NCBI GenBank assembly: GCA_963513935.1
Contig: OY740768.1
Span: 61,731,523 to 61,795,522 of the forward strand
Direction: 5' to 3'
Length of the DNA stretch: 64,000 nt
Origin: Aphrophora alni
Taxonomy: Eukaryota > Arthropoda > Insecta > Hemiptera > Aphrophoridae
Shown here: one piece after another, positions 15,371 through 64,000 of the stretch
Numbering within the stretch: the stretch's first letter is position 1
Layout: every line of letters starts with the position of its first letter
Program-made: the position numbers and the translations under genes
Notes under the pieces: model-generated
What the model saw: the letters and a program-made list of their open reading frames with translations, nothing else
Told to the model about the DNA's origin: nothing
Database searches by the model: none

Positions 15371-16486
15371 AATATCTGTGTTTAAATTTAAAATTAGTAT
15401 GCGAACAATTAATTAATTATAAGAATCAAACCTTAAGATAATGAAAGATCTGTTGTGTTGATGCCAATAAAAACTATTCAATTTACTAGGTACTGGTATT
15501 CCTTACAATTAAAATATTGACAATAATTATTATATACAGAATAAAACATATTTTATGTTCTAATTACCACCATTCTTTATATAACTTATACTTTATAATA
15601 TGGTACAAAATTACTTTAGTTAAAATGCGCAGGTAAATAACAAAAAATTAAACTAAAATAATTATTATTGAAATTAGAATATGAATTTTAAGCGTTTAAT
15701 CGTTAAATTGTTACCTGAGTATTTATTGGTTAAACTCTGTAAAGGAAGGCATATCGCGTCTGGAATAAAACATCTTCTCTAAAGCTTAATAATCAGATTG
15801 CTTGCTATTATGTCCGCTTTAAAGCTTAAAAGATTTGGAGATATTTTTCTTGTGCAATATAAAACTTCTTTTGTAAAATTATATCAGATGAATTTAGGAG
15901 TATAATTAAAAAAAAAAAAATTAATAGTGAATTCAAAAAATAATAATAGCAAACCAATTAAGGGTTTAATTAAGTTTTCCTAATTTAGTAAAGAGTGTAC
16001 CATTTTTTTTTTAAATAATGGTGGGGGTGATTAGGTTTTTCCCAACTCATGGTTTACCAGCGGCAAACACATTTCATAAGGTAGTATGTGCTTTACTTGA
16101 ACCCAAACTATATATACGTTTAATCGATATATACTAGGGAAATGTTACTTACTGATTATTAACATAAAATGTATATAAATTAAAAAATCTTTTTACATAA
16201 TTTGAACGGATTGCTTATATATTCCTACCGAACAAACAGCAAGAGAGACAAAGTGAAAACATGTAAAGATTAATAAAACTGTTAACTCATAAAGTTCTAC
16301 AATGTGCATTTTTTATTAATTTTAAAAAAAGTTTACAGATATATGTGATTAACACATAGGTTATATAAGTTATATATAGGTTATATTGTAACATGCCTTA
16401 ATTGGAAAGGAACGAAGAAAAATATATTTTTATAATTTTTAATTATAATTTATAAATGGCTTAGTTACCTTAATTTTCTATTTCAG

Positions 16487-16755
16487 AGCATATGTAAAAA
16501 TAATAAATCTTGTGGGGGATCGTGTGGATCTACTGTATTAAGCCCAACGCATGCTCTGACTGCTGCACATTGTTTAAGGGAATGTTCTTGTAAAGGGTTT
16601 ATTGACGACAGTAATTGTTCTAAATGTCAATTCCACAACGTAAATGATTATACGTTATATGCTGGAAGCCTTGTGCCCAAATCGTATTCAGCGAAATCAA
16701 AGTTAAAAACATATTACATTCATCCAGAACACAAATTTAGAGATATTAAACACAA
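16487..16755 (+). CDS. Serine protease gene 1, exon 2 (catalytic His)
   Basis: The exon starts after tctatttcag in phase 0 and ends two bases into a codon at a GTGAGT donor (16756). It encodes CGSTVLSPTHALTAAHC, with the catalytic His of S1 proteases in TAAHC. An unusual cysteine cluster follows at once: C-S-C, eight residues, C-x-x-C (ECSCKGFIDDSNCSKCQF), then DYTLYAGS and a HPEHKF motif. The cluster is an insertion relative to ordinary trypsins and recurs with identical spacing in gene 2. It could form extra disulfides or bind metal; the sequence alone cannot decide. Confidence 0.88.
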
Positions 16756-18579
16756 GTGAGTATCAGATAAATTTATCATATTTATGTAATTAAATCTATT
16801 TTAGTTATTAGATAGTTTAAATTATTGATCACAATCCGTCTAAATTTTGTCGTTAATCACAATTTGTTGTTAAAAGGGGTTATAAATAGTAGTATTACTA
16901 TGGAAGAATGCTGAGGAATCAAAAACTATATTATGACAGAAAAAAAATATTAACCTTCGCTGTATTAGTGTGACGCATATTAAAAAAAAAAAAAATTATT
17001 GTATGTTATTATTATATATTATTATTGTATATTATTATCCCTATTCCAAAGTCAATAAACATTTCCTTTTTTTTTACGTTTCTTTTCTAAATTAGTAACC
17101 GATAGTAGTCCTACATATAAATATCGTTAAATAAATATCCCCCCCCCTATTTAAAATTCATTTAAATATTTTTTTCTTATTTAAAATATTTTGTTTTTGC
17201 GTAAAATCGATGTCGTTTTTCCTTTTTTTCCAAACATGAAAAATATATTTTTTTTTTATTCTACCTCGAAATTTTGTTTTAATAATAGTATCCACTGGGG
17301 AAAATACCTTTCCCAAATATCATATTTTCCTCTTTAATTATAGCTAATTTTCGTGTGTAACGTATGGGGAAGTGATAAATTTATTTAGATTATATATATT
17401 TTTTTATAAAGTAACATTATTTATAACAATAGTATAATTTAGCTTTTATTAATTAAAATATTCAGGGTTGGTAACAGTTTCCAAGTTGTTTTTCTTTTCT
17501 ATAATTAATATTGTTTCACCAAGTAATCACCTTGGTATTTCATACATCAATAAACAAAAAGAATAATGAAAAAGAGAAGGAGAATGGAAAAGTATTTTTC
17601 GCAAATTTAGGGATTATATTTTAAAATGATATGATATTCTTCGTTACTTTCCAATTAAGGCATGTTACAATATAATTATTTAGCTTGCCGATTTAATTTA
17701 AATTTTTTGTATGCAAAATATTAACATTTAATAACATTAAATAAATGGAATAATTTTCAAGTAATTTTGCATTTACAGTACCGTCATAACAGCAACAGAA
17801 GTCGATTTATATATTTATTTAGTAATTAGGAAGGTCAAAATGAATTTTTGCCGTAGATAACGGAAACCGTAGTTCAAACGATTACCTAGCAATCTTTAAT
17901 AATAGAAACCTTTACATCGAATTCTAGACGTATTTACAGTTTTGTTCACTTTATCTGTAAAAGTTAATTGCTTAATTTTTGTTATTTCCTATACATAATT
18001 AAAGTTCATAATTCATATTTATTGATTTACCTTAAATTATAAATTTAAACAAGTCATAAATATAAACTTAAAAAATGATAAACAAGTCTTTTCAGCCTGT
18101 TGACCTTGAATTTGTTTTAACATGGATTCTACGATTTTGGTGAAATATAATATTCCCCATTCGCCTTTTATATAACTCCCCACCAATAATAAAATTATGT
18201 CCCTTAAATAATTATACCCCCAGAGTTAATCGAATTTATATACCGTGTATATATTTTTTAAAAATAAATTTAACTACAAATTTCTTTTACGTGGCCACAT
18301 TAATTCCCATACTAACACTAATTGAACCTAAATAATTAACAGCGGATAATTAACAGTATTGAAACTTGTTTTAAGCAAAATAGTTACCTTTTGGTTTTGT
18401 ATCCTCTTCTGTGCTAAAATTTAAACTAATTAATTATAGTTCTTTTTTGGAACCTACAAGTGATTGAACTTAATAGTACATTTTACCCTGGTGCAATATA
18501 TAACCCTTATGAGTCTTCCCAGACGTAACCTGGTATTCTCTTATCTTTACTGTTAAATTTTCTCAATGTCTAATTATGG
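16756..18579 (+). other. First part of intron 2 of serine protease gene 1
   Basis: Very AT-rich, with A/T homopolymers and a C8 run near 17140. No gene, RNA or element boundary recognised. The whole intron runs to 30318 (13.6 kb) and contains the elements listed below. Confidence 0.6.
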
Positions 18580-44324: not shown

Positions 44325-44880
44325 TGAAATTGAGATCAACTTATTTCAGATGTATTTAAATGAGTTATGTCCTTCTCGCGAGACCATTAAAAAACGAATC
44401 TGCTACCGTAAACCTCGATAGTATCAGAAAGTATACGTTGTATATGTTATAAAAGCGTACTGATAATGTAGAATACTATGACATTTTCGAAAAGTTTACA
44501 CCACCAATTGAACCGATTAAATAATTTGATTTGGACGTCAATGTTCACTATAATTACAAGCGACATCATTGTGACAACTCAGTCGTCTCATCAATTTTGC
44601 GAATTAAGTTTTTGCCATGAGTCTTGATTTAAACGGCAACAGTTCTACATTTTCTTCTGATTTCTTTTAACTGATTGATCTAACCGACGGAGATTGAAAA
44701 GTCTTCCTTATCGAATTTTATATGTTCAACTCCATTCCCAATAAAGAAGATGGAATTATTACTAAATTATATCTCCGTAAAGATCAAAACCGCGATTTTG
44801 AAGTAACTTTAATTAACATACAGGTTGATACAAATCGAAGATAGCGAAAAGTATTATAATGAAATCAATAAGCTTTCCAG
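44325..44880 (+). pseudogene. Polinton/Maverick-like relic: adenain-type protease end plus start of structural gene
   Basis: Plus-strand frames parallel the better preserved minus-strand copy at 62.5-63.3 kb. Protease part: RPLKNESATVNLDSI (44370-44420), TDNVEYYDIFEKFTPPIEP, then LDVNVHYNYKRHHCDNSVV (44540-44583). The C-terminal segment that should carry the catalytic Cys reads SSILRIKFLP, so that Cys is gone. The structural gene starts ATGAGT at 44616 (MSLDLNGNSSTFSSDFFQL, then FYMFNSIPN) and overlaps the protease stop as ATGA, as in the other copy. Several stops and frameshifts; dead. Confidence 0.78.
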
Positions 44881-48600: not shown

Positions 48601-49793
48601 TCAGTCAAACTTAACGAAGCTTTAATTTTTTATAAGTTCTTTCAAATCCGATTTTAAAATATTAAATACCAAATGTAGCCAAAGCAAGGTTTTCTTACAT
48701 GTCGGTAATGATGACCGCAACTATTGTCGAATATTACAAATTGACGTCGGGTAGATTTAGATATACAAGGGCATTAAATGAGCTTCGTAGAACGCTTACA
48801 ATAAATAATAGCCTCTCTGTAAAAACCTATACCACTACAACTACATGTGAGAGTAAGCTATGTAAAATTTGCTACCAATCGTAAATAAAAGTCACTTTGT
48901 TACCTTGTGGCCATTTAATAGCCAGTACCGCTTGTTCACCCTAATTAAAGATTTGTGGTGTGTGTAGACAAAAGATAGATGCCACTGTACGCGTATTCAT
49001 TTCATAATGGAAAACTTTACACAAGTTTTACAATTTTTAAAAACTATTTTTAAATATACCTTCAACTAAACCTAGAACGTTGACGGCGTTTGGGGACTTT
49101 TCAAACCAATGCTGGGTTGAATCTTGTTGTTTCCTTTAAGCGACACACGGGACGAAAATAAATGATAATAGATAAATGACAATAAACAGAAAGAATCACT
49201 TATGGCCATTGGTAGAAGAAGGATTGCTGGCCCTAAGAGGATTAGTAGAGGCTGACTCCATCAAGGAAAAATTACATATTAAATGTAAGACGTCAGTGGT
49301 GATATGATCAGACACAGCGAGAGGACAAATGTATGGAATCTGAAGGAATAACATTATGAGGTAATGCTACTAAACACAATCAAATCATAAACACTGCTTC
49401 TCGGAAAGGTTGTTGACCTACAAATCAAAGCGAACTACCGTTATTATCCATTCATAAAACGGTAAAGTAACTACCGAATGCGGAAACAACCTTGTTTACT
49501 ACGTCTGGTATTAGGAAATGACCTCGTATGGTATGTCTGGAAATTATGTCCGAAATGCGGAAATCAGAAGTATGACTCATGTGTCTGGTATACATGGAAT
49601 GTCTGGAATGTGAAAGTATGAAGGATTGGTATTACTTATCTAATAACGTGGTTTCTATTAAATTCCAAATATATGAGGAATAAAACACTTAAACCAGATT
49701 CGTTATTGTTTGATTTTGGTTTGTATTACTGTACTACAGTTTTGTGATTATACATATTTTAAATGGCTTAAATACATTAATTTTCAATTTCAG
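48601..49793. other. End of intron 1 of serine protease gene 2
   Basis: No gene. Contains short repeats of atggaatgtctgg/gtctggta type at 49500-49620. The final 40 bp match the equivalent end of gene 1 intron 1 and finish in a good acceptor (tttcaatttcag). Confidence 0.6.
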
Positions 49794-50053
49794 AGCAAAC
49801 ATAAGAATACTATGGAATCTTGTGGATCCACTTTATTAAGTCCAACACACGCCCTGACTGCAGCGCATTGTGTCAGGAGTTGTGCCTGTAAAGCTTTTAC
49901 TGACGACAAAGACTGTCGAAAATGTTTTATCAGGAATGTAAAAAACTATATATTATATGCCGGAAGTACTGTTGCCAATTATTCTTTAGCGAGATCAAAG
50001 TTAAAAAATATTTTTATTCATCCAGAACACAGATTTAAAGATAAAACACACAA
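49794..50053 (+). CDS. Serine protease gene 2, exon 2 (catalytic His)
   Basis: The exon starts in phase 0 after tttcaatttcag and ends in phase 2 at GTAAGT (50054), the same boundaries as gene 1 exon 2. It encodes CGSTLLSPTHALTAAHC with the catalytic His, then the same extra cysteine cluster (CACKAFTDDKDCRKC: C-x-C, eight residues, C-x-x-C), YILYAGS and HPEHRFKDKTHK. Exon 3, with the catalytic Asp and Ser, is not found between here and 64000. It may lie beyond the window (gene 1 intron 2 is 13.6 kb, this one would be at least 13.9 kb) or be lost. Confidence 0.85.
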
Positions 50054-50529
50054 GTAAGTATGAGATATATTCATCAAATAAATGTAAATAAATTTGTTGC
50101 AATTATATAATTTTTTAAATAATTATAATAAATCAAAACAAAATGTTAAATTTTTGAGAAAGGATGTAAAGGAATTATTTATACATTGTTATGAGAAAAA
50201 AAAATACGTTTAATCCTACGTAAAGAGAATGGGATATAAATAGTTGTGTTACGTTCAAAGAGTTGTGAGAAACAAATAATAAAATTATGAAAAAATTATT
50301 CACATCAAGGAATGCTTACTAGGTAACATTTCACATAAATATATATGTATGTGTGTGTGTTTTTGAAGAGATAGCAAGATGATTATGATTTCAGGAAAAA
50401 GTAGTATATATAAAGCTACTACAATAATAATAGTGATAAAGACGTTAGTGTGGTTATAGAATAACAGTGTGTATCTTATTATAATTAAAACACAATTATT
50501 CACCCTTAAATATCATGTTGGAAAAAGAA
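50054..50529. other. AT-rich intron sequence
   Basis: Nothing recognised. Confidence 0.5.
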
Positions 50530-53510: not shown

Positions 53511-53770
53511 AATTCTCTACTTCACACTTTAATTAATTTTGAGATATAACTATGTTCCCATGACAATACCTAAAACACAATCACAATAAAAAAGATATTT
53601 CTTAACTGTTAAGAACTCTCTTAACTCAACGTACTGCGTTACGGAAATAATTTAACACTCATTCTATCCCTGTTACGTTACATAACTAAATACCAATGAC
53701 TATACCTAAGACACAACCACACTAAAAATAATATATCCTAACAGTTAAAGTAGAGTACCCGCCACTATAG
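53511..53770. repeat. Short satellite block, same family as 50.5-52 kb
   Basis: Two to three diverged units with acataacta(t/a)..tcccatgacaatacctaaaacacaa(t/c)caca and ctcttaactcaacgtactgcgttacggaaataattta. Confidence 0.55.
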
Positions 53771-54085
53771 CACAACATGGCGGCTGTACCACGTGACGAC
53801 CCCCACCCCCTCCCCCACCTCCCCTTACCCCCACCCCACTCCCCAACCTCCCCTTGCCCCCTCCCCTTGGCCCCTCCCCCTTGCCCGCCATTTTGTTGCC
53901 CCCACCTGGTAGACGTCATTGCCCCTCCCCGACGCCATTTTGTTGCCCCCACATGGTAGACGCCATCGCTCCTCCCCCGGAGACACCATTTTGTTGCCCC
54001 TTGCCCTGCCCCCGCCATTTTGTTGTTTTACCCAATCCTTGCCCACCACCACCACCACCTGTAAGACGCCATTGTTTGCCCCCTC
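53771..54085. repeat. C-rich minisatellite with GCCATTTTGTTGCCCC units
   Basis: A strongly C-rich plus strand (G-rich minus) with reiterated (g)acGCCATTTTGTTGCCCC at 53887, 53933, 53983 (variant), 54013 and 54067 (variant). The same motif and base bias recur inside the large palindrome at 58340-58675 and, inverted, at 58790-58975. Overlapping proline- or glycine-rich frames here are artefacts of composition. Confidence 0.8.
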
Positions 54086-54148
54086 CTGGATTCGAACCTG
54101 TGAAGTTAAGATTTGAAGACGGACACGCTACCTACTGAGCTATGATGC
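54086..54148 (-). other. tRNA-derived fragment (SINE head or tRNA pseudogene)
   Basis: On the minus strand there is an A-box-like TAGCTCAGTAGG (complement of 54131-54142) and, 43 bp downstream, a perfect B box GGTTCGAATCC (complement of 54088-54098), the internal RNA polymerase III promoter of tRNAs. A partial D-stem is possible, but the anticodon stem is not convincing and the ends do not pair as an acceptor stem. It runs directly into the minisatellite, suggesting a SINE head rather than a working tRNA gene. Confidence 0.6.
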
Positions 54149-54237
54149 ATAGTATTACAAGTTGTATATTTAACGTATTATATAACGTTTAAAAGAATAG
54201 TTATATTAAAAAGTTAAACGGTACGCTGATCCGTAAC

Positions 54238-54290
54238 GCGAGGTGTACCGAGTTTTTCGCGCGCGCGCGAAAAACTCGCGTACACCTCGC
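54238..54290. repeat. GC-rich hairpin with (CG)n centre
   Basis: gcgaggtgtac (54238-54248) pairs with gtacacctcgc (54280-54290); inside it cgagtttttcgcgcg (54249-54263) pairs with cgcgcgaaaaactcg (54264-54278). One unpaired C at 54279 is the only defect in 26-bp arms with no loop. An imperfect continuation (ggtac..ccgta on the left, its complement on the right) extends the palindrome to about 54220-54312. It lies 550 bp outside the left end of the large inverted repeat. Confidence 0.93.
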
Positions 54291-54525
54291 TATACGGGTA
54301 CCGCCCCGTACCTTCAACCATCTACCAATTTGTCTCTGGATTAATAACATGAAAACTAATGTTTTAATAATTTTTATTCTCTCTCTCTCCAAACAAAAGT
54401 GATACAAATAGTTTAAAAAACAATAACATTAAAGAAATTGATTTGACAGAAATTGATTTATTGGCACATTGTGTCTGTTCTCAGTAATGTGGGGAGTGAA
54501 TTATCGACTCTAATAAACTTTCCTT

Positions 54526-54837
54526 GAACAAAACAGAATAGTTATCTGTACTTTGTACTAAACCGGGGAAAATTAAATGATACTCAGAAATCATTCCATG
54601 AAGCCGGGTATATCGAAAGAGAAATCCTAACCTCACGTAAACAGTGAACAAAACAGATTATCTGTACTTTGTACTAAACTGGGAAAATTAAATGACACTC
54701 AGAAATCATTCCATGAAGCTGGGTATATCGAAAGAGAAATCCTAACCTCACGTAAACAGTGAACAAAACAGATTATCTGTACTTTGTACTAAACTGGGAA
54801 AATTAAATGACACTCAGAAATCATTTCTTGAAGCCGG
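54526..54837. repeat. Tandem repeat, 2.6 copies of about 115-120 bp
   Basis: Copies start with gaacaaaacaga at 54526, 54646 and 54761 and include ctgtactttgtactaaac, actcagaaatcatt and atcctaacctcacgtaaaca. Copies 2 and 3 are nearly identical. The third copy is cut off exactly where the large inverted repeat begins. Confidence 0.9.
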
Positions 54838-55147
54838 AAGCCTCATATAGGTAAGAAAGGGGGGTCGCGTCGCTTTCTGCTACCTCGTTTCGGCTACCAT
54901 TCCAAGGTCAGGTGTGTTTAGACAGACAGGTTCTGACTGGTCTATGTCAGCCGGATTGTACAACAGTGCGTAACACGGAGGTTCCTCGGGCCGACCCAAC
55001 GTTTGACTCACTGTCTACCAGGGTGTAGCACATGTGTTTATGTATCGTGTTAAACCTAAAAGATTGTTAACCTAGACTTATTAAAGTTCCTACTTTTGCC
55101 TAAACCTCTGCTTACCACAGTCCACACGGGTGTTAGTCTTGCCACTA

Positions 55148-55410
55148 TTTAACAACCGATTTACCAACCAAAATATACTTTTACCAACCAAAATACACTT
55201 TTACCAACCGATTTACCAACCAAAACCAACCGATTTACCAACCAAAATATACTTTTACCAACCGATTTACCAACCAAAATATACTTTTAGCAACCGATTT
55301 ACCAACCGAAATATACTTTTAGCAACCGATTTACCAACCGAAATATACTTTTTGCAACCAATTTACCAACCAAATCTTGGTAATTTTATCTACGGTTTGG
55401 TAAATCGGTT
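55148..55410. repeat. Iteron-like tandem repeats beyond left Rep-like gene
   Basis: Seven copies of a GATTTACCAACC core (six exact, one with one change) at about 55157, 55208, 55229, 55262, 55294, 55326 and 55359, separated by aaaatatacttttac/gc. Typical spacing is 32 bp. Short regularly spaced repeats next to a replication initiator gene resemble iterons, but that role is inference. Confidence 0.85.
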
Positions 55411-55520
55411 CCTAACAAACGTTACGACGTTCACATCAAATATCTTCATCTCTACTAAAAAGAGTTTTGGTGGAATGGAGGTAACAAATTACAAAGAATA
55501 TTATTTTAAAACATTTATTT

Positions 55521-57857
55521 TTAATTACAAGCACAGAAAACAACTCTTTCTTTGTGCTTAATTGCAGTGGTTTTTATCTTGTCCAATTTAACATTAAATT
55601 TATAGTTTAAATCTACATTTAGCACTTTTATTTCTCTTTCTAACCAATAATTCGAAACATACAATTCATCTAGATTTTGGAACTGCAAAATATAACGGAT
55701 CTTATGTCTGTAATCAATTTGTTTGATTCCACACACTACTAATTCTGTCCCTTCTTCTAGCTCTTCCAACCGACGACACTCTCTTGGAATAACTTTGCCT
55801 TTTATTTCTTGCATGCCAAGGGTGGATACTTGCTCCACTTCGTCCTGGTTGTAGGGGAAATCTTCTGGTTTTTTCCAAGCATCTGTTAGTGGCTTAAGAT
55901 CCTCTACCTTCGCAAAAGAATGATTATTAAAAGTGGTAATTCCATTCGTCGTAAATGTAAAAATTGTTTCTTCTGTCGCTAAATGCACAATGTCCAGGTC
56001 GTTGTTGGAGGTTAAAACAAATCCCTCTTTTTTTAAATTTTGTTTGTCGTTGTAGACATCCATTAGCCACGATTTGTACTTTCCTTTAAAGAAGTAAACA
56101 CTTTTACTCCCATCTCTTTCTGCGAGTATTCCAACAAAGGCATATTTCGCTTTAGTGTTAACGGTAAATGCGGACACCTGGTAGTCTGCATGTATATCTA
56201 AATTCTTCCAAGTCTTGTTAAAATATGAGCCCATCCGCTCTCTTTTCTCTCTAATAATTTTCTCTTTCTCCTGCATTTCTTTGTATTCCTCTTTTAAGGA
56301 AGCAGCATGTTCCATGTATTCCAATTTTCTCCGTTTTAAGTCAATTTCTTCCAGTTCCAGTTTTCGTTTCTTCGCAGACAGTAGGTAAACGGTGGAGAAT
56401 GGTTCTGTCTCCTTTATATTGTAGGGTTGTAGCCTGTTTGTAATATTCGTTCTCTTCTTTAAAATCTGTGGAATAATATTACTCGTTGGAACCATCCCAC
56501 AGTTCTCGAGGCTTACATCTTTACAAATCGCCGAGAAAGCAGTACTAGATTTCGAGAAGAATGTCTCTCCACTCTTAATGTAGCACTTTTGCACCACACT
56601 AATATGCTCTCTATTAGCGACATCTTCCACAATCTCCAAGTAATTTACAGGCAAATAGTTAAAACTATATGCAGAGAGTACGTAATTAATTATTTTTTTC
56701 CTCTGGTCTTGGTCGCTTGGTAAAGTAAGTTGCACCCCGGTTAACTTCCTCGTGTTACTGTTTCCCCAGTAAGCATATTGTAAAAGATTATTGTACACTA
56801 CACAGCAACTGTTCTGGAGACCGTCAGCTAATTTCGTCCACATTTTAGGGATGGCAACAGAGTAAAACGGGGCTTCCTGGAAATAAATTTTGCTGTCTTC
56901 CAGGAGCGTTACACAGCTGTCCAGAGGATGGTCGCCGCTACCGTTGTAGATCGTAGCCTCCAATCTTGTAATGCCATGCTCCTTACCCAGTGGGGACAGA
57001 AACGTCTGTCTTAATCTGGAGTCTGGACAGTTGACAAAATCCACAATGTGGTTACCAATTTGTTTGTTAACGCCAGGACTCGTAATTTGGCACACGAACT
57101 TGTTGTAGATTTTTACTCTTGCACCAGTAGGAGTAATCCAGGTTAGGCAATCTATCCCAACAGACTTGTCGTTGTTAACAATTGTATTGTAGTTTTCTTT
57201 GTACTGGTCGCCTTGGTAACGAAAGTCATGGTCCTGTACTAAATGCTCACACATCTCTCGCTTGTTAAAGATCCCCACAAAATCTTGTGTAATGTCCAAA
57301 TCCATAAGGTAGAAGTCGTGGGCTTGCAGCTCCAATAGTATTTCGGGCATTTTTTCCAGTAGAGTAGCCAACTCAACATCCGCTAACTCTACCTTGTAGG
57401 GGATTGCAATGGGATTTTTAAATTTTTTTGCAATGGCTTGCATCCCATCTGCTCCAATAATATTGCATACACGTTTCGCCATAGGTCTCTTTCCATTCAA
57501 AGGGAATGGTAATTTTACTTTTACGCCATGTCTTGCCGAAACAAAATCCGTAAATTTCCCACGAAGATAACTGTTAAATGCTCCACAGATATTCTTCTTT
57601 ACGAGGCTCTTCCCTTGTTCGCAATCCGAACTGTCGGTTATTTTAACAAGCATTATGTTGTCGCAGAATGGTTTTGTAAGCGGAGTTAGTGGTTTTATAT
57701 TAACTCCAGACAGCAACTCTTCTCCTTGCGAATAATTAATATTTCCAATATCTGTTACCAGGTTGTTGTTGTGCAGATTTTCTTCCAGAAGCCAAAGTCC
57801 AAATCGTTCGTTGGTTGGTTTAATCCTGCTACCCAAGAGCTCGGAGACCTTATACAT
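55521..57857 (-). CDS. Rep-like protein, left copy (about 778 residues)
   Basis: The first ATG (57857) gives 778 residues; the frame is open 7 codons further upstream to a GTG at 57878, and residue numbers here count from that GTG. No domain is obvious at once, but residues 193-200 are DLDITQDF, 256-260 KIYNK and 304-312 TRLEATIYN. A D-x-D-x3-DF strand, a Tyr in a K/R-x-Y-[DN]-K motif and a following R-x-E strand is the layout of Rep_trans-type rolling-circle initiators, where the Tyr cuts DNA (inference). No Walker A helicase motif is present. Residues 503-549 form a charged coiled coil (KKRKLELEEIDLKRRKLEYM). The C-terminal 230 residues are unassigned. Intact, single exon, and divergent from the right copy. 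Confidence 0.85.
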   Translation of the reverse strand: MYKVSELLGSRIKPTNERFGLWLLEENLHNNNLVTDIGNINYSQGEELLSGVNIKPLTPLTKPFCDNIMLVKITDSSDCEQGKSLVKKNICGAFNSYLRGKFTDFVSARHGVKVKLPFPLNGKRPMAKRVCNIIGADGMQAIAKKFKNPIAIPYKVELADVELATLLEKMPEILLELQAHDFYLMDLDITQDFVGIFNKREMCEHLVQDHDFRYQGDQYKENYNTIVNNDKSVGIDCLTWITPTGARVKIYNKFVCQITSPGVNKQIGNHIVDFVNCPDSRLRQTFLSPLGKEHGITRLEATIYNGSGDHPLDSCVTLLEDSKIYFQEAPFYSVAIPKMWTKLADGLQNSCCVVYNNLLQYAYWGNSNTRKLTGVQLTLPSDQDQRKKIINYVLSAYSFNYLPVNYLEIVEDVANREHISVVQKCYIKSGETFFSKSSTAFSAICKDVSLENCGMVPTSNIIPQILKKRTNITNRLQPYNIKETEPFSTVYLLSAKKRKLELEEIDLKRRKLEYMEHAASLKEEYKEMQEKEKIIREKRERMGSYFNKTWKNLDIHADYQVSAFTVNTKAKYAFVGILAERDGSKSVYFFKGKYKSWLMDVYNDKQNLKKEGFVLTSNNDLDIVHLATEETIFTFTTNGITTFNNHSFAKVEDLKPLTDAWKKPEDFPYNQDEVEQVSTLGMQEIKGKVIPRECRRLEELEEGTELVVCGIKQIDYRHKIRYILQFQNLDELYVSNYWLEREIKVLNVDLNYKFNVKLDKIKTTAIKHKERVVFCACN

Positions 57858-58337
57858 CTTGGAAGGGGCCACGTTCACTATTCAAGCTACTAACGTAAAC
57901 TGAGCTATCTCCATCTAATCTCCTTTCTTAAACAGTTAATCGCGAGTAGTACGCATGCGCAGTAACATTGTTACGCACTGTTGTGCAATCCGGCTGACAT
58001 AGACCAGTCAGAACCTGTCTGTCTAATCTAAACACATCTGACCTTGGAATGGTAGCCGAAACGGGTTAACAATCTTTTAGGTTTAACACGATACATAAAC
58101 ACATGTGCTACACCCTGGTAGACAGTGAGTCAAACGTTGGGTCGGCCCGAGGAACCTCCGTGTTACGTGTAATTAAAAATAAATAAATAAATGTTTTAAA
58201 ATAATATTCTTTGTAATTTGTTACCTCCATTCCACCAAAACTCTTTTTAGTAGAGATGAAGATATTTGATGTGACCTTGGAATTGTAGCCGAAAACGACA
58301 AGACCCCCCCTTTTTTTTTCCTTTTTAAATATATAAC
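57858..58337. promoter_or_regulatory. Upstream region of left Rep-like gene
   Basis: It contains a short palindromic stretch around tacgcatgcgcagtaa (57950-57965), then blocks A' and B' and the inner inverted end. A promoter for the minus-strand gene should lie here; no TATA box was identified. The right copy mirrors it at 58967-59446. Confidence 0.45.
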
Positions 58338-58678
58338 GTCCCCCTGGCCCCTCCCACCCCACCCTACCCCTCCTCCTTGACCCCCACCCGCCCCTCCCCC
58401 TTGCCCCTCCTCCTTGCCCGCCATTTTGTTCCCCCTCCCTCTGCCCGCCATTTTGTTGCCCATACCCATCCCCCATGACCCTCCCACCCCATCCGCCCCC
58501 TCCGCCCCCTCCCACCCCTCCCACCCACCCCTTGACCCCTCCCCTTGGCCCCTACCACCTTTCCCCTCCCACCCCTCCCACCCACCCCTTGACCCCTCCC
58601 CTTCGCCCCTACCACCTTGCCCCTCCCACCCCCTCCCCCTTGCCCACCATCCACCGGGAGACGCCATTTTGTTCCCAG
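58338..58678. repeat. C-rich, G-quadruplex-prone sequence of the palindrome centre (left)
   Basis: C runs such as ggcccctcccaccccaccctacccc (58343-58368) give G-quadruplex-forming G tracts on the minus strand. GCCATTTTGTT units occur at 58419, 58447 and 58661. The part to about 58495 is mirrored on the right; 58496-58678 is an extra tandem expansion of cccctcccacccctcccaccca without a right-hand partner. Confidence 0.85.
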
Positions 58679-58751
58679 GTTAGGTTAGGATAGGTTATGT
58701 TAGGTTAGGTTAGGTTAGGATAGGATAGGTTAGGATAGGTTAGGTTAGGTT
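58676..58751 (+). repeat. TTAGG-type (insect telomere-like) repeats at the palindrome centre
   Basis: aggttaggttaggataggtt...ggttaggttaggttaggata and further copies: a run of about 15 five- or six-base units, TTAGG mixed with the variant (TTA)GGATA. TTAGG is the telomere unit of most insects. The tract is short and interstitial and lies in the non-palindromic spacer between the arms. Confidence 0.85.
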
Positions 58752-58789
58752 TTTAGGAAAATGGTTGCCACACGCCCGGGAGATGGTAG

Positions 58790-58985
58790 GGGTGTGGTGT
58801 GGGAGGGGGCGGGTGGGGTGGGAGGGTCATGGGGGATGGGTATGGGCAACAAAATGGCGGGCAGAGGGAGGGGGAACAAAATGGCGGGCAAGGAGGAGGG
58901 GCAAGGGGGAGGGGCGGGTGGGGGTCAAGGAGGAGGGGTAGGGTGGGGTGGGAGGGGCCAGGGGGACGTTATATATTTAAAAAGG
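58790..58985. repeat. G-rich, G-quadruplex-prone sequence of the palindrome centre (right)
   Basis: Mirror of the left C-rich block, with aacaaaatggcggg at 58850 and 58875 and a G-quadruplex-type run ggggtagggtggggtggg at about 58935. Confidence 0.85.
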
Positions 58986-59446
58986 AAAAAAAAGGGGGGG
59001 TCTTGTCGTTTTCGGCTACAATTCCAAGGTCACATCAAATATCTTCATCTCTACTAAAAAGAGTTTTGGTGGAATGGAGTTAACAAATTACAAAGAATAT
59101 TATTTTAAAACATTTATTTATTTATTTTTAATTACACGTAACACGGAGGTTCCTCGGGCCGACCCAACGTTTGACTCACTGTCTACCAGGGTGTAGCACA
59201 TGTGTTTATGTATCGTGTTAAACCTAAAAGATTGTTAACCCGTTTCGGCTACCATTCCAAGGTCAGATGTGTTTAGATTAGACAGACAGGTTCTGACTGG
59301 TCTATGTCAGCCGGATTGCACAACAGTGCGTAACAATGTTACTGCGCATGCGTACTACTCGCGATTAACTGTTTAAGAAAGGAGATTAGATGGAGATAGC
59401 TCAGTTTACGTTAGTAGCTTGAATAGTGAACGTGGCCCCTTCCAAG

Positions 59447-61783
59447 ATGTATAAGGTCTCCGAGCTCTTGGGTAGCAGGATTAAACCAACCAACGAACGA
59501 TTTGGACTTTGGCTTCTGGAAGAAAATCTGCACAACAACAACCTGGTAACAGATATTGGAAATATTAATTATTCGCAAGGAGAAGAGTTGCTGTCTGGAG
59601 TTAATATAAAACCACTAACTCCGCTTACAAAACCATTCTGCGACAACATAATGCTTGTTAAAATAACCGACAGTTCGGATTGCGAACAAGGGAAGAGCCT
59701 CGTAAAGAAGAATATCTGTGGAGCATTTAACAGTTATCTTCGTGGGAAATTTACGGATTTTGTTTCGGCAAGACATGGCGTAAAAGTAAAATTACCATTC
59801 CCTTTGAATGGAAAGAGACCTATGGCGAAACGTGTATGCAATATTATTGGAGCAGATGGGATGCAAGCCATTGCAAAAAAATTTAAAAATCCCATTGCAA
59901 TCCCCTACAAGGTAGAGTTAGCGGATGTTGAGTTGGCTACTCTACTGGAAAAAATGCCCGAAATACTATTGGAGCTGCAAGCCCACGACTTCTACCTTAT
60001 GGATTTGGACATTACACAAGATTTTGTGGGGATCTTTAACAAGCGAGAGATGTGTGAGCATTTAGTACAGGACCATGACTTTCGTTACCAAGGCGACCAG
60101 TACAAAGAAAACTACAATACAATTGTTAACAACGACAAGTCTGTTGGGATAGATTGCCTAACCTGGATTACTCCTACTGGTGCAAGAGTAAAAATCTACA
60201 ACAAGTTCGTGTGCCAAATTACGAGTCCTGGCGTTAACAAACAAATTGGTAACCACATTGTGGATTTTGTCAACTGTCCAGACTCCAGATTAAGACAGAC
60301 GTTTCTGTCCCCACTGGGTAAGGAGCATGGCATTACAAGATTGGAGGCTACGATCTACAACGGTAGCGGCGACCATCCTCTGGACAGCTGTGTAACGCTC
60401 CTGGAAGACAGCAAAATTTATTTCCAGGAAGCCCCGTTTTACTCTGTTGCCATCCCTAAAATGTGGACGAAATTAGCTGACGGTCTCCAGAACAGTTGCT
60501 GTGTAGTGTACAATAATCTTTTACAATATGCTTACTGGGGAAACAGTAACACGAGGAAGTTAACCGGGGTGCAACTTACTTTACCAAGCGACCAAGACCA
60601 GAGGAAAAAAATAATTAATTACGTACTCTCTGCATATAGTTTTAACTATTTGCCTGTAAATTACTTGGAGATTGTGGAAGATGTCGCTAATAGAGAGCAT
60701 ATTAGTGTGGTGCAAAAGTGCTACATTAAGAGTGGAGAGACATTCTTCTCGAAATCTAGTACTGCTTTCTCGGCGATTTGTAAAGATGTAAGCCTCGAGA
60801 ACTGTGGGATGGTTCCAACGAGTAATATTATTCCACAGATTTTAAAGAAGAGAACGAATATTACAAACAGGCTACAACCCTACAATATAAAGGAGACAGA
60901 ACCATTCTCCACCGTTTACCTACTGTCTGCGAAGAAACGAAAACTGGAACTGGAAGAAATTGACTTAAAACGGAGAAAATTGGAATACATGGAACATGCT
61001 GCTTCCTTAAAAGAGGAATACAAAGAAATGCAGGAGAAAGAGAAAATTATTAGAGAGAAAAGAGAGCGGATGGGCTCATATTTTAACAAGACTTGGAAGA
61101 ATTTAGATATACATGCAGACTACCAGGTGTCCGCATTTACCGTTAACACTAAAGCGAAATATGCCTTTGTTGGAATACTCGCAGAAAGAGATGGGAGTAA
61201 AAGTGTTTACTTCTTTAAAGGAAAGTACAAATCGTGGCTAATGGATGTCTACAACGACAAACAAAATTTAAAAAAAGAGGGATTTGTTTTAACCTCCAAC
61301 AACGACCTGGACATTGTGCATTTAGCGACAGAAGAAACAATTTTTACATTTACGACGAATGGAATTACCACTTTTAATAATCATTCTTTTGCGAAGATAG
61401 AGGATCTTAAGCCACTAACAGATGCTTGGAAAAAACCAGAAGATTTCCCCTACAACCAGGACGAAGTGGAGCAAGTATCCACCCTTGGCATGCAAGAAAT
61501 AAAAGGCAAAGTTATTCCAAGAGAGTGTCGTCGGTTGGAAGAGCTAGAAGAAGGGACAGAATTAGTAGTGTGTGGAATCAAACAAATTGATTACAGACAT
61601 AAGATCCGATATATTTTGCAGTTCCAAAATCTAGATGAATTGTATGTTTCGAATTATTGGTTAGAAAGAGAAATAAAAGTGCTAAATGTAGATTTAAACT
61701 ATAAATTTAATGTTAAATTGGACAAGATAAAAACCACTGCAATTAAGCACAAAGAAAGAGTTGTTTTCTGTGCTTGTAATTAA
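59447..61783 (+). CDS. Rep-like protein, right copy (about 778 residues)
   Basis: Mirror copy of the left gene; ATG at 59447, TAA at 61781, open to an upstream GTG at 59426. The predicted protein differs from the left copy at only one position (Val658 left, Ile658 right, counted from the GTG), caused by G against A at 61397. Motifs DLDITQDF, KIYNK and TRLEATIYN and the coiled coil are identical. The 3' end runs into the same block (61770-61885) and iteron-like repeats as the left gene. Two intact copies with so little divergence mean recent duplication, gene conversion between the arms, or selection on the product. Confidence 0.85.
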   Translation: MYKVSELLGSRIKPTNERFGLWLLEENLHNNNLVTDIGNINYSQGEELLSGVNIKPLTPLTKPFCDNIMLVKITDSSDCEQGKSLVKKNICGAFNSYLRGKFTDFVSARHGVKVKLPFPLNGKRPMAKRVCNIIGADGMQAIAKKFKNPIAIPYKVELADVELATLLEKMPEILLELQAHDFYLMDLDITQDFVGIFNKREMCEHLVQDHDFRYQGDQYKENYNTIVNNDKSVGIDCLTWITPTGARVKIYNKFVCQITSPGVNKQIGNHIVDFVNCPDSRLRQTFLSPLGKEHGITRLEATIYNGSGDHPLDSCVTLLEDSKIYFQEAPFYSVAIPKMWTKLADGLQNSCCVVYNNLLQYAYWGNSNTRKLTGVQLTLPSDQDQRKKIINYVLSAYSFNYLPVNYLEIVEDVANREHISVVQKCYIKSGETFFSKSSTAFSAICKDVSLENCGMVPTSNIIPQILKKRTNITNRLQPYNIKETEPFSTVYLLSAKKRKLELEEIDLKRRKLEYMEHAASLKEEYKEMQEKEKIIREKRERMGSYFNKTWKNLDIHADYQVSAFTVNTKAKYAFVGILAERDGSKSVYFFKGKYKSWLMDVYNDKQNLKKEGFVLTSNNDLDIVHLATEETIFTFTTNGITTFNNHSFAKIEDLKPLTDAWKKPEDFPYNQDEVEQVSTLGMQEIKGKVIPRECRRLEELEEGTELVVCGIKQIDYRHKIRYILQFQNLDELYVSNYWLEREIKVLNVDLNYKFNVKLDKIKTTAIKHKERVVFCACN

Positions 61784-61906
61784 AAATAAATAAATAAATG
61801 TTTTAAAATAATATTCTTTGTAATTTGTTACCTCCATTCCACCAAAACTCTTTTTAGTAGAGATGAAGATATTTGATGTGAACGTCGTAACGTTTGTTAG
61901 GAACCG

Positions 61907-62175
61907 ATTTACCAAACCGTAGATAAAATTACCAAGATTTGGTTGGTAAATTGGTTGCAAAAAGTATATTTCGGTTGGTAAATCGGTTGCTAAAAGTATA
62001 TTTCGGTTGGTAAATCGGTTGCTAAAAGTATATTTTGGTTGGTAAATCGGTTGGTAAAAGTATATTTTGGTTGGTAAATCGGTTGGTTTTGCTTGGTAAA
62101 TCGGTTGGTAAAAGTATATTTTGGTTGGTAAATCGGTTGGTAAAAGTATATTTTGGTTGGTAAATCGGTTGTTAA
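61907..62175. repeat. Iteron-like tandem repeats beyond right Rep-like gene
   Basis: Eight copies of ggttggtaaat(c/t)ggttg with aaagtatatttt spacers, the inverted counterpart of 55148-55410 but with one more copy. Confidence 0.85.
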
Positions 62176-62481
62176 ATAGTGGCAAGACTAACACCCGTGT
62201 GGACTGTGGTAAGCAGAGGTTTAGGCAAAAGTAGGAACTTTAATAAGTCTAGGTTAACAATCTTTTAGGTTTAACACGATACATAAACACATGTGCTACA
62301 CCCTGGTAGACAGTGAGTCAAACGTTGGGTCGGCCCGAGGAACCTCCGTGTTACGCACTGTTGTACAATCCGGCTGACATAGACCAGTCAGAACCTGTCT
62401 GTCTAAACACACCTGACCTTGGAATGGTAGCCGAAACGAGGTAGCAGAAAGCGACGCGACCCCCCTTTCTTACCTATATGA

Positions 62482-62954
62482 AAGGATCCTGTCACAATGT
62501 TACATTCTATGCGAATCACGTTCACTTTAATAATATCGACCGGTAAATCGGATTCGTGTTTAGTAATAGCTTCCAATTTATCGCTATTAAAACCTAGTAA
62601 TATTCCGATAGAATCGTCGCTGTCGAAATGAATCGCTGCAGAACACTTAATCTCCGCTTTAAGTGTGTTATTGTTGGGTTTCAGTGAAAATGCCACCCCC
62701 GGCGGCAGTTGGGCTTTGATATATTTTTCAATATCCTCGATTTCGTACGAACCGGTGGGAATACTAATGATGACGTCGCTGTCGGCGCCGGATATTCGTA
62801 ACTTGTTATTTACACCTTCCGTTATATTGGGGATGGAATTGTAGGTGGCAAAATCTATGAGGCCGATTTCCCACTCGTCATCATCGCTCAGTTCTATGAT
62901 TGGAAAAAAATCGCAAGCAATTACAGGTCCACTACCGCTCAGAACAATGCTCAT
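62482..62954 (-). pseudogene. Polinton-type structural protein gene, truncated at its 3' end
   Basis: ATG at 62954 begins MSIVLSGSGPVIACDFFPII, with DDEWEIGLIDFATYNSIPN, and later GISFSL-like beta segments and GILLGFNSDKLEA; a short protein of this type follows the protease in many insect Polinton-like elements and is probably a virion component (family recollection; function not established). After IECNIVTGS the frame crosses into the inverted-repeat element at 62482 and reads unrelated sequence (FHIGKKGGSRRF) to a stop near 62403, so the natural C-terminus is lost. Start and protease stop overlap as ATGA. Confidence 0.75.
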
Positions 62955-63324
62955 TGTTGCGATAGAAACTTTAGGCACAAATGTCCGCAGACAACTGAGT
63001 TGTCACTCTGATGACGTCTGTAATTATAGTGAAGATTGACGTTGGAACCGAAATATCTAGACAATTCGATAGGGGGCCTAAGATTACCGAAACTATCAAA
63101 GTACTCTACGTTAGGTCCTCTTTTCCTGTAGCATACCCAATGGGTACCCTCCCCCGAAATACTGTCCAGATTCACAACGGCCGATTCGTTTTGCAATGGT
63201 TTTACGGGTAGAGTGTCTCTCATATAGACTCCTCTGAAATGCGGTATTTTCAGTTTAACACCGTATTTTTCAATGTCAATGTTAGTCAGAGGTTTTATCG
63301 GGATCGAATCTATCGGCGTTTTTT
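62951..63324 (-). CDS. Adenain-type cysteine protease of Polinton-like element, N-terminus uncertain
   Basis: The frame is open from about 63324; the first ATG is at 63223 (MRDTLPVKPLQNESAVVNLD). Catalytic positions of the adenovirus-protease fold are visible: His in GTHWVCY, an acidic residue in VEYFDSFGN, Gln in YRRHQSDNSVV and Cys in CGHLCLKFL. In related viruses this enzyme matures capsid proteins. No ATG lies in the 34 codons before 63223, although that stretch (PLTNIDIEKYGVKLKIPHF) looks like genuine protease sequence; it starts at an A9 run (63319-63327) where the PLA2 frame overlaps. The gene may therefore be fused to, or frameshifted from, the PLA2 gene. Confidence 0.8.
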
Positions 63325-63867
63325 TTTACACGTTTGTCGTCGTCGTCGTCCTGAGCCCCTTACATAAGGTTTTAAGTAAAGTCCTTTGCCCTTCAACCGA
63401 CTCAACAGTTGTTGAACCGTGTGCTTTTTTCCCCCTCTCCTCCTCCTCCGTCTCCCCCCACCTCCTAACTTTGTTTTCGCTTTCATAGCGGCTGATACGG
63501 CCAGCGCAGCAGCGCGTTCGGCTAAAGTAGCGTCCCCCGATTTAACCCTACTCCAAGCTTTACCCGCTAATCTATCGTCCGCCTGTCTACGATTTTCCGA
63601 ATCACTATATTTACTGTACGCTATATCGTGCTCTTTACAAGCTTCGTCCAACGGATTGATTCCTCTATCACCACGAGCTAATCTCTTGGCTAGTTTTGTA
63701 CCGGGACCGCAATAATTGTACGACGGTAGATGTAGTTCAACCGGTAATAGATCGATAGCTTTATTTAAAACAGTGTCACCAGCACTCAATAACCTAGACA
63801 CAAGTCCACGTCCTTTCTTCACCGCTCTTCGTCTACGACTGAGCGATGTTGATCGTTGCACTGCCAT
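63310..63867 (-). CDS. Phospholipase A2-domain virion-type protein of Polinton-like element
   Basis: ATG at 63867 (MAVQRSTSLSRRRRAVKKG) gives 185 residues; an in-frame ATG at 63897 is less likely. The PLA2 calcium loop YNYCGPGT and the active-site helix with His-Asp in DEACKEHDIAYSKYSD are present, as in parvovirus VP1 and adintovirus PLA2 domains, which breach the endosomal membrane during entry (family knowledge). Basic stretches (GGGGRRRRRRGGKKH and the C-terminal RRRR..KKKRR) suggest nuclear localisation or DNA contact. No break within the frame. It ends TAG at 63310, overlapping the open protease frame. Confidence 0.85.
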   Translation of the reverse strand: MAVQRSTSLSRRRRAVKKGRGLVSRLLSAGDTVLNKAIDLLPVELHLPSYNYCGPGTKLAKRLARGDRGINPLDEACKEHDIAYSKYSDSENRRQADDRLAGKAWSRVKSGDATLAERAAALAVSAAMKAKTKLGGGGRRRRRRGGKKHTVQQLLSRLKGKGLYLKPYVRGSGRRRRQTCKKKRR

Positions 63868-63889
63868 TTCTATACTGTTGACACGGAAT

Positions 63890-64000
63890 TTATACACGAG
63901 TATAAATTATCTCCGATAGTAGGGTGTACAACTCCCTGAGACGATTCTCCTTCATACAAGTGATTTTTAACACATCGAAAATATCAGTATAAACCCCCGT
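63890..64000 (-). CDS. C-terminal end of a further Polinton-like gene (partial)
   Basis: A minus frame open from the window edge ends at TAA 63890, reading YTDIFDVLKITCMKENRLRE then LYTLLSEIIYTRV. It sits 23 bp before the PLA2 start codon. Too short to name; the rest lies beyond the window. Confidence 0.5.
   Translation of the reverse strand, partial: TGVYTDIFDVLKITCMKENRLRELYTLLSEIIYTRV

Follow-up and report, generated by a model that had tools for sequence, protein, structure and literature searches.

Mobile palindromes with a Rep-like gene in the Aphrophora alni genome, probable satellites of Polintons

What kind of element consists of one gene present twice in mirror image, and how might it be copied and inserted? 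The question is raised by a near-perfect 7.6-kb palindrome in a stretch of 64,000 nucleotides from Aphrophora alni (contig OY740768.1; C3:61731523-61795522), referred to here as the window. Each arm carries a complete gene for a Rep-like protein, and related palindromes were found at many other loci of the 1.70-Gb assembly (388 contigs) that we searched. We consider it probable that these mobile palindromes are Rep-encoding satellites of Polintons (Maverick/adintovirus type), in which a Polinton integrase would act in trans and the arms would be copied by foldback.

A palindrome with two intact genes

The arms were delimited using an inverted-repeat search and an arm alignment and are 99.1% identical over 3701 columns, with a 260-nt spacer between them. 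A chance test was judged unnecessary for a near-perfect inverted repeat of 3.7 kb. The palindrome has the following features.

54843..58523, no strand: left arm, with the conserved terminus 5'-TCATATAGGTAAGAAAGGGGGGTCGCG as its outer end
58784..62481, no strand: right arm, with the same outer terminus (5'-TCATATAGGTAAGAAAGGGGGGTCGCG)
55524..57857, minus strand: Rep-like gene copy 1, 778 codons, stop at 55521-55523
59447..61780, plus strand: Rep-like gene copy 2, 778 codons, stop at 61781-61783
55148..55374, no strand: 12/32-bp tandem repeats of the ACCAACCGATTT type in the gene 3' flank, unit count unequal between arms
57969..58312, no strand: left arm inner end, made from copies of outer-end modules and followed by a second terminus-like GACCTTGGAATTGTAGCCG..CCCCCCC
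58339..58676, no strand: C-rich minisatellite, its first part mirrored in the opposite arm
58677..58751, plus strand: (TTAGG)n array of the arthropod-telomere type, in a single orientation in the window copy
58752..58791, plus strand: one half of the conserved central hairpin (..AAATGGTTGCCACACGCCCGGGAGATGGTAGGG), continuing into the start of the right arm

Both genes are complete and oriented outward from the centre, as the initial annotation had described. Their open reading frames (ORFs) differ at two bases, namely 55907/61397, which accounts for the single-residue difference (V/I) reported in that annotation, and 55695/61609, a silent change that went unmentioned. The 8-bp indel (55512 / 61792-61799) and the unequal numbers of repeat units were recovered as described, while a substitution given at 59079 does exist but lies one base away, at 58224/59080.

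The inner end of the left arm is composed of three pieces (57969-58066, 58064-58167 and 58178-58274) that are the reverse complements of 54882-54975, 54969-55072 and 55431-55526 and match these outer-end modules at 92, 100 and 98%, respectively. The pieces are apparently joined at a few shared bases, an arrangement that suggests template switching.

Related palindromes occur in two layouts

A 1-kb piece of the gene yielded at least 48 matches in the genome (40 of 209 candidates scored). The Rep-like protein gave at least 58, with 58 of the 1238 candidates scored, and no internal stop is present in 56 of these copies. Whether such copies are single units or inverted pairs had been posed as a question in the initial annotation. 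The 58 scored copies contain 20 pairs of neighbors at most 6 kb apart, together with 18 unpaired copies. In every pair the two copies are on opposite strands, and no same-strand pair was found. Fifteen pairs are convergent and five, including that of the window, are divergent. For the unpaired copies at loci L013 and L026 the partner is truncated, and the partners of further unpaired copies may be among the unscored candidates.

Layouts were assigned over the 20 loci read (L010 to L029). In the first, type A, the gene 5' ends face the centre as in the window (L010 and L012); a deletion in one arm is seen at L011 and L023, while L013, L022 and L024 are damaged or half copies. In type B the gene 3' ends face the centre (L016 to L021 and L027), and imperfect examples are L014 with an indel, L015 with one arm truncated and 200 N in the locus, and the damaged L028 and L029. 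The layout of L025 and L026 is irregular. Intact 778-codon genes among these loci were found in the type B loci, in L013 (one gene) and nearly so in L026 (777 residues), and in none of L010 to L012 and L022 to L024; further loci with intact divergent genes exist in the genome. At L026:2666-6062 the sequence resembles a monomer of the Rep unit with inverted ends of approximately 144 bp, followed by a truncated inverted copy.

Polinton-type ends and target-site duplications

At L010, L011, L012, L022, L023 and L024 the Rep-unit terminus 5'-TCATATAGGTAAGAAAGGGGGGTCGCG faces outward, and beyond it lie 220 bp (approximately 122 bp in L024) up to 5'-AGTAGACATACC. The outer end of type B copies is 5'-AGTAGAGTGTGGGG, with both ends read in L016 and L027, and in the stretches read the TCATATAGG terminus of the Rep unit was present at none of 11 type B loci (L014 to L021 and L027 to L029). 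Terminal AGTAGAC or AGTAGAG was found at both ends of L010, L011, L012, L016, L023, L027 and of a Polinton that contains the window palindrome. Termini of the form 5'-AGT are a trait of Polintons.

Six of the seven elements for which both ends were read are flanked by identical 6-bp target-site duplications (CACGTT in L010, CTCCTT in L012, GGTGTG in L016, CTCATA in L023, TCTTGT in L027 and AGTTAA for the window Polinton). The remaining one, L011, has Polinton-type ends and no 6-bp duplication. Duplications of 6 bp are typical for retrovirus-type integrases, according to the portion of PMC12220804 consulted.

The TCATATAGG terminus itself adjoins varied flanks, among them Polinton genes in the window (right side) and in L026 (left side) and AGTAGAC-ended repeats in L010 to L013 and L022 to L024. 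In the window Polinton and in L026, the Rep unit with its TCATATAGG end showed no target duplication.

The Polinton that hosts the window copy is 21.7 kb long with the palindrome included, and extends from 53749 (AGTAGAGTACCC) to C3:61806926 (L054:2477). Its left terminal region (53806-54426) and right end (L054:1738-2402) are inverted repeats with 88.7% identity over 673 columns. The following features of this element lie in the window.

53743..53748, no strand: target-site duplication AGTTAA, left copy (right copy at L054 2478-2483)
53749..54426, no strand: left terminal region of the Polinton, which starts 5'-AGTAGAGTACCC and contains a C-rich minisatellite and a tRNA-like stretch at 54088-54185
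54427..54842, no strand: rest of the left stretch ahead of the palindrome, containing a 115-bp repeat in 2.6 copies
62482..62951, minus strand: penton gene of the Polinton (minor capsid), truncated by the palindrome after ..CNIVTGSF
62954..63322, minus strand: Polinton protease-like ORF with no Pfam match above cut-off, which from its resemblance we take to be of the adenain type
63313..63903, minus strand: Polinton ORF with a phospholipase A2-like domain (PF08398)

Further to the right (L033) are a matrixin, an A32-type ATPase, an ORF with a weak match to a chromodomain, an rve integrase and PolB in two ORFs. The matrixin metalloprotease (PF00413, E 4e-29; L033:657-1538, minus strand) is perhaps a captured host gene.

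The window copy thus lies inside a Polinton and its relatives move with Polinton-type ends. The single-gene replicon proposed in the initial annotation was not supported as stated, the palindrome at this site being no stand-alone replicon. A penton homologue (P0045, 69% in the alignment) extends 76 residues past the cut. The palindrome has taken the place of the last part of the penton gene and of whatever lay beyond. A simple insertion into this gene was rejected, as the missing C-terminus was found neither in the left flank nor elsewhere in the window.

Other copies also have links to Polintons. L026 adjoins a phospholipase A2 gene (80% identity), with an integrase match 1.3 kb before the stretch read, and at L013 a fragment of an integrase (62% over 45 aa) lies 0.4 kb beyond the terminus. 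The ends of type B copies (AGTAGAGT, C-rich array) are similar to the end of the window Polinton, whose stretch 54088-54185 recurs at 87-90% in type B loci L014 to L016, L021 and L027 to L029 and in L024. By eye this stretch and its recurrences look tRNA-derived; ARAGORN found no tRNA in 53600-54600.

The terminal repeat of the L010 type gave at least 50 matches (40 of 568 candidates scored), including eleven convergent pairs. Three of these pairs are the palindromes L010, L012 and L023, and a Rep copy (C3:115861655) lies inside a fourth. That pair (C3:115859009-115870192) and seven others, of 4.5-19.6 kb, carry the L010 terminal repeat, and no integrase was found inside these eight among the best 150 of 1930 candidates, which are matches of at least 83%, such that a more distant integrase like the one near L013 would escape. 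Polinton integrases number at least 150 in the genome (the best 150 of 1930 candidates, all matched). Since they are very numerous and mostly open frames of 316-336 aa, the Polintons seem recent and are possibly active in this genome.

A hairpin and TTAGG arrays at the centre

In both layouts TTAGG-type arrays flank a central hairpin, ..GAATGGTTGCCACAC.. followed by the loop TACCAACC..CATCTCCC and then ..GTGTGGCAACCATTC.., and the complete relatives printed have (TTAGG)n arrays in both orientations. The head-to-head inverted pair described in the initial annotation is supported, and intact relatives have a hairpin at the centre. When up to two substitutions were allowed, the stem was complete in 16 of 21 sequences (the window and L010 to L029), partial in the window, L022, L026 and L028, and not found in L024. 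Folded as single-stranded DNA, one of two complete hairpins forms a stem of 29 pairs (-30.2 kcal/mol, z -12.7) and the other a stem of 30 pairs (-33.2 kcal/mol, z -12.1). The half hairpin of the window, whose other half is missing, forms no such stem (z -2.1), and the TCATATAGG terminus has no notable fold (z -1.5).

The hairpin loop is asymmetric. Flip and flop forms of the loop were considered as a sign of hairpin transfer and dropped, since in a symmetric palindrome the orientation of the loop equals the orientation of the insertion. In L022 (7195-7240) the half palindrome stops within the loop and directly joins other DNA, and this junction could be the point at which a hairpin opened.

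TTAGG is given as the common arthropod telomere motif in the part of PMC8977481 consulted. Eight contig ends were read to check the host telomeres; one consisted of N only, and a TTAGG array was present in none.

The Rep-like protein and its conservation

The window protein had no Pfam match at E<=1. For the 30 members of alignment A1, 25 of 26 families were displayed, each matched by one member, and PF02486 was absent from those displayed. The best PHROGs hit (E 0.053) was below cut-off, and the best in NCBIfam (E 0.0062) was a coiled-coil protein far under its cut-off. No HUH Rep or superfamily 3 (SF3) helicase family was found for the window protein at E<=1 in these three databases, and other family members matched helicase models just weakly, as single hits. 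Protein Data Bank (PDB) sequences gave no match by sequence (profile best E 0.12), scans of IMG/VR and GTDB contigs and searches of phages and plasmids revealed no relatives, and hhalign of profile A4 with pT181 RepC gave a probability of 0.15 percent. Relatives of the protein are present in at least two insect orders, Hemiptera and Orthoptera.

The N-terminal domain is predicted by modelling to have a TBP-like fold near those of Rep_trans initiators; TBPs rank equally, so the fold match alone decides nothing. An acidic D/D/E pattern is conserved in A1 (D66 in 30 of 30 members, D188 in 29 and E300, within R-x-E, in 30), the ligands being assigned to motifs N', I and IV through motif order, with no superposition. 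The motif list of Rep_trans (N', I, II and IV) is from the section of PMC5714925 consulted. Judged from its spacing to IYNK relative to pT181 RepC, again with no superposition, the place of the motif II catalytic tyrosine corresponds to C237, where A1 has cysteine in 28 members, isoleucine in one and threonine in one; by this spacing none of the 30 has a tyrosine there. Y251 within IYNK is present in all 30 and is a possible alternative nucleophile. The protein has approximately 440 C-terminal residues more than Rep_trans, with a predicted long helix and OB-like end. On the basis of the model and these motifs, the Rep-like gene named in the initial annotation probably encodes a distant domain of the TBP-fold/Rep_trans type, with a putative Rep activity.

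In L010, L012, L016, L023 and L027 as read, all ORFs of at least 200 aa overlap the Rep region, in a scan that covered neither the outer arrays of L016 nor the right ends of L010, L012 and L027. A search of L010 to L032, L055 and L056 was made with nine pieces of Polinton proteins (E<=1e-5). Only L013 and L026 matched, in their flanks, although a diverged protein could escape such a search; rve integrase and PolB, both present in the host Polinton of the window, were by the same search not found in the palindromes, and no capsid gene was found in them either.

The ratio of nonsynonymous to synonymous changes (pN/pS) in the Rep-like gene was 0.10-0.32 for nine pairs among 21 intact ORFs, values that indicate purifying selection. 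Of 2334 ORF positions, the arms differ at two in the window, at one in L020 and at none in L016, L017, L018, L019, L021 and L027, whereas up to 41 differences separate loci. Each palindrome is thus one sequence present twice. Whole-arm identity with arrays included ranges from 97.5% (L014) to 99.9% (L013). The arms would either be rebuilt from one template in each cycle or convert each other, and gene conversion can equally maintain their identity.

How the palindromes may have arisen

Perfect palindromes are a known type of artefact, and a missed adapter or chimeric read during library preparation or assembly could be suspected from the identical arms of type B and the 200 N in L015. This origin is hardly credible given a common centre with an asymmetric loop at many loci and the private arm differences in the window and L020. 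Recurrence at many loci, together with target duplications at all but one of the elements tested, removes the worry, in agreement with the view of the initial annotation that no simple chimeric read is involved. It is also quite improbable that the palindromes represent an independent small linear DNA virus or plasmid, with hairpin ends and a Rep gene, that integrated repeatedly and by chance in Polinton-rich regions. The monomer-like unit of L026 with its inverted ends would suit such an agent, as would the finding that 33 of 44 protein relatives are on contigs whose longest measure 1.6-6.9 kb. Neither the Polinton-type 6-bp duplications and 5'-AGTAGA ends, nor the Polinton genes and AGTAGAC-ended repeats next to the TCATATAGG terminus, nor the lack of a capsid gene in the palindromes examined would be expected from it.

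An unlikely but more serious alternative would make the palindromes defective products of Polintons, passive in their own copying. Foldback of an end during protein-primed replication would yield short inverted dimers, like those among defective genomes of viruses, that are copied and integrated by Polinton proteins, with the Rep-like gene as a passenger or serving another function. Linear DNA with protein-primed replication favours products with inverted ends, and the Polinton-type ends and 6-bp duplications, which persist at copies with broken Rep genes, are as this explanation predicts. However, the low pN/pS values and the 56 open copies among the 58 scored indicate that the Rep-like gene is kept for something. 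The Rep unit also has its own precise TCATATAGG terminus against unrelated flanks, and the hairpin centre is conserved though the orientation of the gene to it differs between layouts.

The explanation that we favor, in which the palindromes are Rep-encoding satellites of Polintons, would combine these observations as follows. An intact copy is a mirrored arm with a Polinton-type end, one Rep-like gene, a (TTAGG)n array and the central hairpin. A Polinton integrase, and perhaps also the protein-primed polymerase, would act in trans on the palindrome ends, and the Rep-like protein would nick the central hairpin, the TCATATAGG terminus or a site close to one of them. Foldback (hairpin-primed) copying from the nick would regenerate both arms from one, and rolling-hairpin replication fits such a scheme. 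The same activity may also bring the TCATATAGG-ended Rep unit into the genomes of Polintons, and the window and L026 would be examples. Weighing against this explanation, no integrase-bearing Polinton that owns the L010-type terminal repeat was found within the searches described above.

Relation to known systems

Polintons/Mavericks of the adintovirus type share with the palindromes the 5'-AGT termini, inverted terminal repeats and 6-bp target duplications. They encode integrase, polymerase and capsid, whereas all that the palindromes read were seen to carry is a Rep-like gene in two mirror-image copies, with a telomere-repeat hairpin between them. Foldback elements and palindromic non-autonomous transposons likewise have long inverted arms and apparently are non-autonomous for integration, as here; the palindromes add a gene under purifying selection in each arm and a common hairpin/TTAGG centre. 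Parvovirus/adeno-associated virus (AAV) rolling-hairpin replicons, Helitrons and Replitrons use a Rep of the HUH type. A Rep-type initiator with a hairpin is a possible mechanism in common, but the window protein matches no HUH family (Pfam, E<=1) and its closest predicted folds differ. With Rep_trans (PF02486), pT181 RepC/RepDE and archaeal Rep-Arvir the protein shares the predicted TBP-like fold and the D/D/E, IYNK and RxE motifs, and as in those initiators the hairpin near the Rep gene is a possible origin. It differs in having no listed PF02486 match, a cysteine at the tyrosine place (by spacing), the long C-terminal extension and a eukaryotic setting. Transpovirons are described in the consulted part of PMC11071308 as small linear parasites of larger DNA viruses whose replication proteins tie them to the Polinton world. 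They are parasites of mimivirids with Tlr1-like/PolB-helicase proteins, and neither a palindromic genome nor such a Rep-like gene is mentioned in that part of the article.

A bolder interpretation, offered tentatively, is that we may be observing a hyperparasite of an animal virus-like lineage. It would be a palindromic satellite with a telomere-repeat hairpin as origin and a eukaryotic TBP-fold initiator that lacks the canonical tyrosine and represents a new catalytic type. Its mirror arm would be rebuilt in each cycle via hairpin-primed copying, and Polinton integrase, polymerase or capsids would be provided in trans. If true, this would be a third layer of parasitism in animals (host, Polinton and satellite). 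Such satellites of DNA viruses are known mainly from protists. The interpretation would also extend Rep_trans-like TBP folds to eukaryotes; a 2026 paper (PMC13107129), in the part consulted, treats the Rep_trans group as bacterial with a distant archaeal family. Since these long palindromes are copied in nature and their hairpin centre is conserved, they would allow palindrome formation and arm homogenisation to be traced across many copies. The statement in the initial annotation that no described transposon class has this layout agrees with the titles and abstract openings surveyed (subscription journals being mostly outside the survey), in which no Rep-encoding palindromic Polinton satellite is described.

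Other features of the window

A weak tblastn match to the N-terminus of a Polinton penton (44617-44775, plus strand; 44% over 54 aa, E 0.01) is perhaps an older Polinton relic. The stretches 16436-16826 and 49740-50124 are direct copies that are 74% alike, and the second overlaps an ORF (49677-50057) that by eye has the look of a trypsin-type protease.

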